Shown: positions 53,412 to 57,834 of the stretch, in pieces
Layout of the letters: each line of letters starts with the position of its first letter
Position numbering within the stretch: the first letter of the stretch is position 1
Source of the DNA: Caldilineaceae bacterium
GTDB lineage: Bacteria; Chloroflexota; Anaerolineae; Caldilineales; Caldilineaceae
DNA: 64,000 nt
Direction of reading: 5' to 3'
Assembly (NCBI GenBank): GCA_958295845.1
Contig: OY282376.1
Span: forward strand, 1,005,022-1,069,021
Translations under genes and position numbers: made by a program
The notes under the pieces: model-generated
Told to the model about the DNA's origin: nothing
The model's database searches: none
The model's input: the letters and a program-made list of their open reading frames with translations, nothing else

Positions 53412-53760
53412 TCTGGTGTTCTCCGCGTCCTCCGCGAATCAAAGAAAGGTGTTCTCCGTGGCCCTCCGCGGACAAAAGAAGTTGCCGTTGCCGTTCTCCG
53501 TGGCCCTTAGTGGCCCTCCGTGGACAAAGGAAGTTGCCGTTGCCCTTCTCCGTGCCCCTCAGTGGCCCTCCGTGGTTCAAAAAGAGGTGTCCTTCGCGGC
53601 CCTCCGTGGACAAAGGAAGTTGCCGTTGCCCTTCTCCGTGCCCCTCAGTGGCCCTCCGTGGTTCAAAAAGAGGTGTCCTTCGCGGCCCTCCGTGGACAAA
53701 AGAAGTTGCCGTTGCCGTTCTCCGTGCCCCTCCGTGTCCTCCGTGGTTAAAGAGGTGTCC
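53412..53760 (+). repeat. CTCCGTGG-type tandem repeat array B
   Basis: After an irregular start, three units have an exact 86-bp period, marked by ACAAAGGAAG or ACAAAAGAAG at 53524, 53610 and 53696. Each contains GTTGCCGTTGC, CCCTCAGTGGCCCTCCGTGG and GAGGTGTCCTTCGCGG segments. Two open frames over 100 codons cross it, with repeat-derived peptides only. The 53109-53411 gap before it contains nothing recognisable. Confidence 0.92.
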
Positions 53761-53804
53761 TTTTTGTTATATTCTGACCGGCCTTCCCACAACGTCAGCG
53801 AAAC

Positions 53805-54194
53805 CTAAAAGGGAATATCCTCCTCACCGCCCGCCACAGCGCCCCCATCAGCCCCGCCGCCCGCAGGCGTCCCCTGCCCACCGGCCTGACCCCAGCCACC
53901 GGCAAGCGCTTCACTTTCTGCCCGCGTGTTCAGGAACCGCACAGTCCGCGCCGTAACTTCCAGCGAAGCCCGCGTATTCCCCTCCTGGTCCGTCCACGTG
54001 TTGGGCTCCTCAACTTCGCCGACAACCAGAACCCGCTGACCCTTCGTCAGGTACTGATTGCAGGTCTCTGCCAGTCCCCGCCACGCTGCCACTCGGAACC
54101 AGACCGTCTTCTCCTGGCGCTGGCCGTCCTGGCCAGTCCAGGACCGACTGGTGGCGACACTGAAGTTGGTTACGGCCACACCGCTGGGCGTGTA
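53805..54194 (-). CDS. ssb: Single-stranded DNA-binding protein SSB-1, 3' exon (gene split by group II intron)
   Basis: This is the 129-residue remainder of an SSB protein, beginning YTPSGVAVTNFSVATSRSW and ending with the acidic tip EEDIPF that recruits repair proteins. Motifs WTGQDGQRQEKTVWF, NQYLTKGQRVLVVGEVEEP and ARTVRFL show the OB fold. Fused to the 18-codon exon at 56637-56690 it gives a normal 147-residue SSB in frame. An isolated ATG inside would give a truncated protein missing two strands, so intron splicing is needed. The Gly/Ala-rich linker (residues 100-140) is standard. It is the most downstream of three ssb genes. Confidence 0.9.
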   Translation of the reverse strand, partial: YTPSGVAVTNFSVATSRSWTGQDGQRQEKTVWFRVAAWRGLAETCNQYLTKGQRVLVVGEVEEPNTWTDQEGNTRASLEVTARTVRFLNTRAESEALAGGWGQAGGQGTPAGGGADGGAVAGGEEDIPF

Positions 54195-54254
54195 GTAGGG
54201 TAGGAAGCAGGTGAGTTACTGTTTTTCTCAGTACTTTTCCTACTCCCCCCCTCC

Positions 54255-54288
54255 GAACCGTGCTTGCGACTTTCATCGCACACGGCTC
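54255..54288 (-). ncRNA. Group II intron domain V (catalytic hairpin)
   Basis: Read on the minus strand, the 34-base motif starts GAGCCGTG, carries TGCGATGAAAGTCGCA in the middle and ends CACGGTTC. The AGC catalytic triad and the GAAA-type tetraloop are present, and the pairing is complete apart from a two-base bulge. Domain VI follows and begins GTAGGAAA, closing with TTCCTAC close to the 3' splice site. Confidence 0.95.
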
Positions 54289-56096
54289 TCCAGTTTGATA
54301 TTCCAGTTATCCCATTCACTTCTGTGCTTGCCTGCGTGTATGTCTTTGTGACAGGTTTTGCAGACTATCAGAGTTTTTCTTCTGAGTGCTGACATCCTTC
54401 GTACCCAAGCCGGTTTCTTCTTTCTTCCCGGTTTGTTTAGGTCTTTCAGTTTTTGCACATGGTGAACTTCGACTTCGCCTTCTTTTTCACACATATCGCA
54501 CTTGTTACTTGACATTCTTGTGAGTAGTTCACTGCGGTTTGTTCCTATCATGCCGCCATATCCTACTCTAGTAACTTTGTCCTCTATCTGTGTTTCTGGC
54601 TTCCGTATCAGAGGTATAGCTCCGTAGTGTGCCGTGAGTGTCTTCTTTCCTTCCCTTTCTATTTTTGCTTCAAAGACTCTGTAGGTTTTTCCGTTTACAA
54701 TTTTGGTCTTTTTGTATTTTTTGACCATTTTGTTTACGGATGTTTTATGTTTTCCTGCCAGTGTCTTTAGAAGGGAGGTTGAAGTTACCCATTCCACTTC
54801 GCTGAGGCGGTGAACGTTATGCGCCATTTGGTAGTACTGAACGAGTCCCCTGTATTCTGACTGGAACATTGCGATAATATCGAAATCGCTGTTTAGTAGT
54901 AGTTCCGGTCTGTGTACAACTTTCCCGTTTTTTGTGTACTTCCTTTTGGTGTTTTGTATGACTTCCCTGGGAACTCCCAGCCAGATTGTCCCGTTGGCGC
55001 TTCTTCTCTCGTTTCTCTGCATTACGCAGAGGTCGTATCCGAGGAATTTTGCTTTTTCGTCTCTGGCGTGTGTTATCAGTGTCTTTTCTATTGATAGCTC
55101 TAGGTCGAGTTCTCTTTCGAGGAATTCACTGATTCTGTTCCGTATTTCTTCGGCCTCTTTTTTTGGGCCGGCGAAACTGAGCAGGAAGTCATCGGCGTAT
55201 CTGATGTATTCCAGTTTTCTGTAACTATCGTCGTCAATTACTGACGGGATAGTTTTCATCAGCTTGCCGTAACGTTCGTAGGCTTCTACGTTTCCCTTTT
55301 CTCTCGCTTGTCTACGTTTGAATTCGTAGTGTCGATATTCAGGGTTTCGTTTTCTGCCTTTTTCCTTCAGACTGCCATAGTTGTAGTGCGGTAGCAGTTC
55401 TTCTTCGACCCAGCTATCGAAAACATCCAGATAGATGTTTGCTAGTAGTGGGCTGATGATTCCGCCTTGCGGCGTCCCGCTGTATGTTCCGTACCACTTC
55501 CAGTCTTCCATGTATCCTGCTTTCATCAGGTACTTTACCAGATTTAAGAACCTCTGGTCTTTGATTTTTTCTTCCATGATTCCCAGTAGGGTTTCTTGGT
55601 CGATGTTGTCAAAGCACCCTTTTATGTCTCCTTCTATGAACCAACTCGTGTCTCGGTGTGATTCACGAATCTGTTTCAGTGCAGTGTGGCATCCCCGTCC
55701 GGGCCGGAACCCGTGGCTGCGTTTACTGAACTGTTGTTCGTAGAATGCTTCCAGTAGGATTTTCATGGCGGCTTGTAGGAGCTTGTCGTCCCCAGAAGGG
55801 ATTCCTAGCGGTCTTTCCCTACCATCTCCTTTTGGTATGTACGTTCTGCGTACTGGGTTCCATCTGTAGGTTGCTGTTTTGACTCTCTGGATTATTCCGG
55901 TGATTCTCTTATGAGACATTCCGTCCAGTGTGTCTTCACTAGTTCCTTGTGTGATGGCTCCCTTATTTGCGTATATTTCCGCATACGCTTTTTCGTACAG
56001 TTCCTTTTTGAAGAGTTGCCTATACAGTCTTTCCAGAGTTTTGCCTTGCTTCCCTCTGCTCTGGATGACATTCAGTACAGTTTCGATTTTCTGCAT
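54273..56096 (-). CDS. Group II intron reverse transcriptase/maturase with HNH endonuclease
   Basis: A 607-residue intron-encoded protein. The reverse transcriptase core holds FIEGDIKGCFDNID and the YADD box near residue 300 (IRYADDFLLSF); TPQGGIISPLLANIYL is the family motif between them. A maturase (X) region follows, then a C-terminal HNH nuclease with CDMCEKEGEVEVHHV and CKTCHKDIH. It promotes splicing and retrohoming. The stop codon TGA is inside domain V of the intron RNA, so the last residues (ESRVR) are read from the catalytic hairpin. The protein start has GGGAGA about ten bases before it. All catalytic motifs appear intact. Confidence 0.94.
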   Translation of the reverse strand: MQKIETVLNVIQSRGKQGKTLERLYRQLFKKELYEKAYAEIYANKGAITQGTSEDTLDGMSHKRITGIIQRVKTATYRWNPVRRTYIPKGDGRERPLGIPSGDDKLLQAAMKILLEAFYEQQFSKRSHGFRPGRGCHTALKQIRESHRDTSWFIEGDIKGCFDNIDQETLLGIMEEKIKDQRFLNLVKYLMKAGYMEDWKWYGTYSGTPQGGIISPLLANIYLDVFDSWVEEELLPHYNYGSLKEKGRKRNPEYRHYEFKRRQAREKGNVEAYERYGKLMKTIPSVIDDDSYRKLEYIRYADDFLLSFAGPKKEAEEIRNRISEFLERELDLELSIEKTLITHARDEKAKFLGYDLCVMQRNERRSANGTIWLGVPREVIQNTKRKYTKNGKVVHRPELLLNSDFDIIAMFQSEYRGLVQYYQMAHNVHRLSEVEWVTSTSLLKTLAGKHKTSVNKMVKKYKKTKIVNGKTYRVFEAKIEREGKKTLTAHYGAIPLIRKPETQIEDKVTRVGYGGMIGTNRSELLTRMSSNKCDMCEKEGEVEVHHVQKLKDLNKPGRKKKPAWVRRMSALRRKTLIVCKTCHKDIHAGKHRSEWDNWNIKLESRVR

Positions 56097-56636
56097 TTCG
56101 CAATTCTCCCTGTCTGTATGTCCATCTTACCTGTCCCCCTTCGCCTTGTAAGCGGCTTTCCCGCTCTCTGACTACTACGGGGACTCCGTTCTCATATGCC
56201 TCTCGGCACTTAGAGAATCCCGAATTCTCGTGCTAGTTTACGATAGTGTCCCTTAGACTTCCCGTTCGTTTCCTTGGTCTTGCTCTCTGCAAGTTTTCTC
56301 CCCGTTGGCAGGTAGCTCACCGTCTGAGATAACCGGTTCGCCTTCTGGAGTGAGTCTACGCTAACCTCTCTCCCTGGGGACTTGGGTTACAGCCACGTTT
56401 CCCAAGAGTGCCCGATTTACACTGACTGGAAACTAGGATTTTGGCAGTCTAGCCTTAGTCATAGGATACAGGTCTTGGCGGTCTAGTGTTCATTGTGGCT
56501 ATTCCACTCTCCGCCTTTCCCACCATGCTGTTTTCCCCTCTCCTTTTCAGGTTCAGGTAGGGTGGGTGACCTATGGGGTATCCTGCTCCCCATGTCCACT
56601 AAGTGGACGATAAAACTAGCCGATTAGACGGCGCAC

Positions 56637-56690
56637 CCGCATCTCCGGATCGCGGCCCAGATTTCCTACCAGTGTGATCTGCTGATACAT
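56637..56690 (-). CDS. ssb: SSB-1, 5' exon (18 codons)
   Basis: The exon encodes MYQQITLVGNLGRDPEMR and is preceded by AAGGGGAGA near the ATG. It is identical in 17 of 18 positions to SSB-2 (Leu for Ile at position 7). Without splicing, translation would run into the intron and add unrelated residues before a stop, losing SSB-1. Confidence 0.92.
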
Positions 56691-56816: not shown

Positions 56817-57260
56817 CTAGAACGGTATATCCTCTTCACCAGCGGATTCCTGCACCGGGCCAGATCCGCCCCCTGCCTGTCCATCTTGCCCACCGTACTG
56901 CCTCCCGCCAGCGTCTATCGCCTCACTCTCTTCCCTTGAATTGAGGAACCGTACCGTCCGCGCCCGCACCTGGAGTGAAGCCCGCGCATTGCCCTCCTGG
57001 TCAGTGTAGACGTATGGCTCTTCCAATTCGCCGACAACCAAAACTTTTCGTCCCTTCGTCAGATATTGATTGCACGACTCGGCCTGCCTCTCCCATGCAG
57101 ACACGCGGAACCAGACGGTCTTCTCATTTCTTTGTCCATCTGCGCCTGTCCATCCCCGACTAGTTGCGACGGGGAATGAAGTGACAGCTGTACCGCTCGC
57201 CGTGTACCGCATCTCCGGATCGCGCCCCAGGTTCCCTACAATAGTAATCTGCTGATACAT
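56817..57260 (-). CDS. ssb: Single-stranded DNA-binding protein SSB-2
   Basis: A 147-residue intact SSB. MYQQITIVGNLGRDPEMRYTASGTAVTSF begins the OB fold (split here for length after GNLGRD), WTGADGQRNEKTVWF and LTKGRKVLVVGELEEP follow, and the Gly/Gln/Ser linker leads to EEDIPF, the tip that binds partner proteins. The ATG was chosen by homology and AAGGAAA upstream; an open frame of 86 codons before it is not SSB. It lies 148 bases downstream of SSB-3 and 126 before SSB-1, on the same strand. Confidence 0.94.
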   Translation of the reverse strand: MYQQITIVGNLGRDPEMRYTASGTAVTSFPVATSRGWTGADGQRNEKTVWFRVSAWERQAESCNQYLTKGRKVLVVGELEEPYVYTDQEGNARASLQVRARTVRFLNSREESEAIDAGGRQYGGQDGQAGGGSGPVQESAGEEDIPF

Positions 57261-57408: not shown

Positions 57409-57834
57409 CTAAAACGGAATCCCCTCGCCGCCATTGGATGACGGACTCGGTGCATGCTGACCGTTTGCGTACGTAGCTTGTCCCTCAGACACGACGTTAC
57501 CTTGCCCCCGCGAACCAAGGAACCGCACCGTCCGCGCCTGAACTTTCAAGTCGGCCCGTGCGTTACCATTGGCATCAGTCCACACGGCGGGCTCGTCCAA
57601 CTCCCCAATGACCAGCACGCGCTCGCCCTTCGAAAGATACTGATTGCAGGTCTCGGCCAGTCGTCGCCACACAGATACGTCAAACCAAACCGTCTTCTCC
57701 TGGCGCTGCCCGTCTGCGCCTGTCCAGGATCGACTGGTAGCAACTCTGAGATTCGTTACCGGATCCCCGTTAGGCGCGTGCCGCAGCTCAGGGTCATTGC
57801 CAAGATTCCCTACCAAAGTGATCTGCTGATACAT
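57409..57834 (-). CDS. ssb: Single-stranded DNA-binding protein SSB-3
   Basis: A 141-residue SSB, the first of the set to be transcribed. The OB fold is complete (GNLGNDPELRHAPNGDPVTNL, WTGADGQRQEKTVWF, YLSKGERVLVIGELDEP), but the C-terminal tip is GEGIPF in place of the more acidic EEDIPF of SSB-1 and SSB-2, which may weaken partner binding. A strong promoter with an SOS-box-like palindrome lies upstream. It is probably the least canonical paralog, and may have a specialised role, for example in competence or repair. Confidence 0.92.
   Translation of the reverse strand: MYQQITLVGNLGNDPELRHAPNGDPVTNLRVATSRSWTGADGQRQEKTVWFDVSVWRRLAETCNQYLSKGERVLVIGELDEPAVWTDANGNARADLKVQARTVRFLGSRGQGNVVSEGQATYANGQHAPSPSSNGGEGIPF

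Follow-up and report, generated by a model that had tools for sequence, protein, structure and literature searches.

What allows a bacterial group II intron to live inside a conserved chromosomal gene, and how does it get from one such site to another? The question is raised by a 64,000-nucleotide (nt) stretch of a Caldilineaceae bacterium genome (GenBank assembly GCA_958295845.1, contig OY282376.1, positions 1,005,022 to 1,069,021 of the forward strand), here called the window, in which one of three tandem ssb genes, coding for single-stranded DNA-binding protein (SSB), is split by an intron that encodes a reverse transcriptase (RT). Across the genus, introns of a single clade occupy base-exact sites in all three ssb paralogues, the spliced frames are intact, the exons are under selection and the distribution is patchy. 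We read the element as a very probable case of an intron dedicated to ssb and competent for retrohoming, of an IIA-like type with a mitochondrial-like (ML) RT, which splices, homes between the paralogues and has repeatedly been gained or lost.

The split ssb gene and its intron

The interrupted gene, named paralogue C, and its intact neighbours are laid out as follows in window coordinates.

57409..57834, minus strand: intact ssb paralogue A
56817..57260, minus strand: intact ssb paralogue B, with an empty target (empty junction 57206/57207)
56637..56690, minus strand: exon 1 of ssb paralogue C, codons 1-18, ending GATCCGGAGATGCGG
54195..56636, minus strand: group II intron, 2442 nt, GTGCG...AC, with the Rfam RF00029 match ending exactly at 54195 and base-exact homologues in four relatives
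53805..54194, minus strand: exon 2 of ssb paralogue C, codons 19-147 and the stop codon
54273..56096, minus strand: intron-encoded protein, 607 amino acids, with RVT_1, Intron_maturas2 (domain X) and AI2M-like HNH endonuclease domains and the motif YADD
54255..54288, minus strand: domain V catalytic hairpin
54198..54251, minus strand: domain VI, with a bulged branch-point A at 54201 (position -7)

Excision of 54195-56636 (GTGCGCC...CCCTAC on the minus strand) fuses GAGATGCGG to TACACGCCC and keeps the frame open. The spliced product, reading MYQQITLVGNLGRDPEMR up to the junction and YTPSG... after it, has 147 residues and an acidic EEDIPF tail at its C-terminus, and matches the Pfam SSB family (PF00436, E = 5.8e-34) as well as the NCBIfam ssb model (TIGR00621, E = 3.7e-39, over the cut-off). 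The preliminary description had set the boundaries to the base between codons 18 and 19 and had predicted the restored 147-residue SSB. Both are borne out by uninterrupted ssb-C genes of the same genus, which cross the junction unbroken, and by five further insertions in four genomes with identical base-exact ends. Its one imprecision is the range, 53805-56690, which begins at the ssb stop and so spans the whole split gene, not just the intron.

That the insertion is a group II intron within ssb is backed by the Rfam match, the domain architecture, and the empty sites and equivalent insertions in the genus. The RF00029 match, covering domain V and the 3' end, lies at 54195-54290 (70.6 bits, E = 7e-12, cut-off 40), and the Rfam scan of the window gave no match besides this group II domain V/3' end. 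The 5' GTGCG and 3' AC ends fit the group II pattern GUGYG...AY, and domains V and VI fold with the A at -7 bulged in 4/4 homologues tested by minimum-energy folding. The G+C content is 47% in the intron and 61% in the window.

The 607-residue open frame matches PF00078, PF01348 and PF21368, all over their cut-offs, and keeps the YADD catalytic motif. The best match of the RT in the PDB is LtrA (E = 2.9e-116, residues 19-586, 392 bits), followed by the next group II RT at 132 bits and T.el4h at 123. The base directly 5' of exon-binding site 1 (EBS1) and the first base of exon 2, compared by eye, form an A-T delta-delta' pair at ssb C and B, in the two related introns upstream of rplI and in one in a thiF-type gene, and a G-C pair in relatives in a tRNA gene and in mazG; at ssb A of genome G001 they are A-C and not complementary. 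Such complementarity is typical of IIA introns. Together, the structure match and the delta pairing suggest that the window intron is IIA-like, with a probably ML, LtrA-like RT/maturase. A chloroplast-like (CL) class was considered and dropped, because LtrA is by far the closer structural relative and delta-type pairing fits better.

The host genome is a single contig of 5.40 Mb, and genome-wide statements rest on genome searches. It has one full-length copy of the intron. Besides this, the searches gave a single group II signal, from a copy lacking the RT at C1:3554986-3555751, some 200 nt upstream of rplI (a gene named from its N-terminus, MARMKVLLTEDIPSLGLAGEV). A Pfam search finds no SSB genes in it other than these three, which are transcribed from A through B to C; thus, two copies are whole and one is interrupted. 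The two intact paralogues next to the split gene had been noted in the preliminary description, and it is plausible that they made the ssb-C insertion tolerable; G001 has 2/3 of its tandem copies interrupted. The paralogues are diverged, with 0.6-0.7 of synonymous sites differing. The trio recurs in most of the genus, and the family's other genera usually have one or two ssb genes. Just past the ssb stop, at 53415-53762, lie tandem repeats of 34, 52 and 86 nt (CTCCGTGGTTCAAAAAGAGGTG...), and similar repeat-derived frames are found in genome G015 (L152).

Insertions and empty sites across the genus

We compared 100 related genomes, G000 being the window genome, and found the ssb-borne form of the intron in genomes of the same genus only. 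The loci, read directly, show paralogue C interrupted in G000, G001, G003 and G014. G001 carries a second insertion in paralogue A, and in G013 paralogue B is interrupted while C is intact. All six insertions lie at the codon 18/19 boundary, start with GTGCGCC, end with CTACCCTAC and leave an open spliced reading frame. The introns of the four relatives are 83-89% identical to that of the window, the range between genomes as a whole is 83-96%, and the two copies of G001 are identical to each other. In the other genomes of the genus, ssb-C reads through the junction uninterrupted, with empty sites in the sister genomes G005, G006 and G009; G004 has a single, intact ssb, and the state of ssb-C in G008 was not countable, as the contig ends inside the gene. 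The preliminary description had named an uninterrupted ssb in related strains and a differing junction as observations that would speak for and against it: the former is present in the genus, and the latter was looked for among the relatives and did not occur. Occupation of the other two paralogues elsewhere in the genus goes beyond what it described.

In the RT tree, all ssb introns fall into a single clade (100/100), separate from those in other genes, and close named relatives of the intron are in Caldilineaceae metagenome-assembled genomes. A degenerate pattern for the same junction matched 13 other genomes of 400 in the phylum, none of them in ssb. A phage or plasmid source was considered and rejected: no close relative was found in IMG/VR, and the most similar RTs from plasmids and phages reach about 50% identity.

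The carriers are scattered on the rpoB tree, requiring at least four changes of the trait, and three close pairs differ in their intron state (G001/G005, G014/G006 and G013/G009). Such a pattern might arise by differential precise loss alone, if inheritance was vertical and an ancestor already carried the intron in one ssb gene prior to the triplication or soon after it. Precise loss could explain the sister genomes of carriers that lack the intron, and the synonymous divergence of the RT broadly tracks that of rpoB. However, the RT genes of B-borne and C-borne introns differ at a proportion of synonymous sites (pS) of 0.37-0.51, below the 0.63-0.76 that separates the B and C genes within a genome, which indicates that the intron spread after the paralogues had formed. 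The rooted intron tree also conflicts with the host tree, placing G000 outside a group of G001, G003, G014 and the B-borne intron of G013 (95/97), whereas rpoB groups G000 with G001 and G014. A tree constrained to keep the C-borne introns together is rejected (approximately unbiased test, p-AU 0.016), a value that is only a guide because the tested group was named after the tree had been seen. Taken with the identity of the A-borne and C-borne copies of G001, this makes vertical inheritance quite unlikely.

Alternatively, the intron might have been moved by ordinary recombination or gene conversion among the tandem copies, or by exchange of whole ssb loci between species, instead of by retrohoming. 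Between G001 and G014, ssb A and B differ at a pS of 0.06-0.10, closer than rpoB at 0.24, from which we conclude that the ssb locus recombines between species; such exchange may have helped the intron to spread. The two G001 copies would also fit a passive transfer, being identical although their RT is frameshifted. Yet the exons beside the A copy of G001 (GGCAATGAT...CACTTG) and the B copy of G013 (TATACGGCAAGC) keep their paralogue-specific letters up to the junction, so no donor exon came along with the intron, which argues against simple gene conversion from C. We therefore regard recombination in place of retrohoming as doubtful.

Target recognition and the proposed route of movement

If the intron homes, its RNA should pair with the exon bases at its target. 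The elements that might do so, and a neighbouring hairpin, are located as follows.

56320..56334, minus strand: EBS1 hairpin loop (loop 2, TTATCTCAGA), inferred from perfectly pairing relatives
56324-56329, minus strand: EBS1, TCTCAG, with the delta base A directly 5'
56348..56372, minus strand: hairpin at the position of EBS2 (loop 1, TTAGCGTAGA), with no partner identified in the window genome

The exon end ATG[A/C]GG, the intron-binding site 1 (IBS1), is found at 6/6 occupied sites and at 18/35 unoccupied ones (Fisher one-sided p = 0.03, a guide only, because the sequences are related). The EBS1-homologous loop pairs over 8 nt at the site of the relative in a tRNA gene (GTTTAGGA with TCCTAAAC) and over 8 nt at each of two sites in the leader of rplI (TACTACGA with TTGTAGTA, GACTACGG with TTGTAGTC), where an altered letter is compensated, and the ssb sites of G003 and G014 show a 7-nt EBS1 pairing. 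The EBS1/IBS1 pairing that the preliminary description proposed to seek is thus perfect over 7-8 bp in the homologous loop of relatives and partial in the window genome, where TCTCAG pairs at 4/6 positions with its own IBS1, ATGCGG, chiefly because the loop fits AGG and the host codon is CGG. An alternative EBS1 elsewhere in domain I, such as CTGTATC at intron position 166, was rejected because the stretch lies outside the covarying loop and fails for the AGG sites.

The partial pairing, together with the two intact paralogues adjacent, might also mean that splicing has been lost in the window genome and that ssb-C amounts to a pseudogene whose work is done by the other two copies. Against this, the window exons are intact, the RT frame is open and domains V and VI are preserved. 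The ratio of nonsynonymous to synonymous differences (pN/pS) of the C exons is 0.139 in intron-bearing genes and 0.161 in uninterrupted ones, so that, as judged from their substitutions, the interrupted exons are evolving like those of a working gene. The intact exons and the pN/pS ratio offer indirect support for splicing, and we think the loss of splicing very unlikely.

The ssb introns have two hairpins with near-identical loops (TATC[T/G]CAT), the hairpin at the EBS2 position resembling EBS1. In G001, where both A and C are occupied, loop 1 fits the C site (GATGAGG) and loop 2 the A site (GATGCGG), over 7 nt each; in G013, the fit of loop 1 is to the occupied B site and that of loop 2 to the C site, which is empty. 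Shuffling gives p of about 0.02-0.04 for each loop match, uncorrected and among related introns. These introns might conceivably be of dual specificity, with two guide hairpins instead of distinct EBS1 and EBS2, one for AGG and one for CGG as arginine codon 18, which would allow homing into and splicing from differently spelled paralogues, a reading that we hold to be rather improbable.

For the retrohoming intron that we favour, the following route is proposed. Ribozyme and maturase would excise the intron from the ssb mRNA by way of the bulged A at -7, so that codons 18 and 19 are joined. The RNA-protein particle thus released would then read the conserved DPE-M-R codons (IBS1 ATG[A/C]GG and the first base of exon 2), reverse splice into an empty ssb DNA and complete the insertion by target-primed reverse transcription with its HNH and RT domains. 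Homing between paralogues would be possible because the three tandem ssb genes share the target stretch, and in this way the intron would pass from paralogue to paralogue within the genus; precise loss would also be possible. Splicing, reverse splicing and target-primed reverse transcription are established for introns of this kind (PMC4424553); for the ssb introns, we infer splicing, retrohoming and the direction of the moves.

Several observations weigh against this proposal. The EBS1 of the window genome pairs as poorly as described above, and an EBS2-IBS2 pairing was looked for in the ssb introns, none being convincing or conserved. Paralogue B of the window genome is empty even though its target matches the occupied site at every position from -18 to +6, which may reflect weak mobility at present, the weak EBS1 match or chance. 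Both intron copies of G001 (G001:C205, L072; ssb A and ssb C) share a frameshift after about RT residue 403. Either an already broken element has moved recently or the assembly is chimeric; the maturase may be acting in trans, decay may have begun there, or the metagenome contig may be misassembled. Finally, the genus's other group II introns are mostly RT-less remnants.

Related introns and what the ssb series adds

Related introns are found in other genes. A relative with an RT 61% identical interrupts tRNA-Arg(CCT) on the 3' side of the anticodon stem (L089 4148-6557; G009:C26:162147-164556), and ARAGORN finds this tRNA once the intron is removed and none with the intron in place. In chloroplasts, tRNA genes with group II introns are well known. 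Another relative lies in frame in a MazG-family gene, at DELGDVLWYLT/QICTEL (L090 3830-6297; G005:C201). The tRNA-Arg and mazG relatives suggest that the organelle-like residence of this lineage within genes is more than an isolated accident. Two more distantly related introns are also in frame, one in a helicase C-terminal domain near motif VI (L020 967-3417; G072) and one in a ThiF-type gene at its GCGGTGS motif (L021 957-3540; G083). Upstream of rplI, one site at a distance of about 200 nt is occupied by the RT-less intron in the window genome (L088) and by an RT-bearing one in G013:C58 (L091 3968-6423), and between these two, the EBS1 letters shift along with the exon letters.

The nearest well-studied system is Ll.LtrB with its protein LtrA from Lactococcus lactis, a group IIA intron of the ML lineage. 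The window intron resembles it in its layout of RT, maturase and HNH domains and probably in the way its target is read, by EBS1-IBS1 pairing together with a base directly 5' of EBS1 that is complementary to the first exon 2 base. In Ll.LtrB, splicing rejoins the host gene, as we propose for ssb-C. Unlike Ll.LtrB, the window intron resides in a chromosomal ssb and, across the genus, in all three tandem paralogues. C.te.I1 of Clostridium tetani is a bacterial group II intron likewise associated with related coding segments in tandem, within a protein-coding gene (PMC3919590). It is ORF-less (lacking an open reading frame) and by splicing joins a single 5' exon to several 3' ones (PMC3919590), whereas each ssb paralogue has its own complete exon pair and its own intron copy.

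The preliminary description placed bacterial group II introns usually between genes or in other mobile DNA; that they mostly avoid housekeeping genes agrees with the literature, which records exceptions (PMC4424553, PMC6003770). General avoidance is described for bacteria (PMC6003770), and introns of the CL and ML lineages are recorded as residing in housekeeping genes (PMC4424553). Like the ssb intron, these bacterial housekeeping-gene introns, found especially in Cyanobacteria, interrupt a conserved gene in frame with precise boundaries. Residence in a housekeeping gene is therefore already known in itself, and it is the set of paralogues as a target that is unusual. In the open-access literature, most subscription papers lying outside the search, we found no report of ssb as an intron host, or of a single clade of introns spread over several paralogues of the same cluster.

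Arguments about the life of bacterial group II introns in conserved chromosomal genes usually rest on counts; the ssb insertions provide a natural series on the subject. With one intron in three paralogues, absent from sister genomes and always at one codon boundary, gain, loss and switching become comparable with changes in EBS and IBS. If splicing occurs as proposed, the SSB supply of these Chloroflexota would be partly dependent on a ribozyme.
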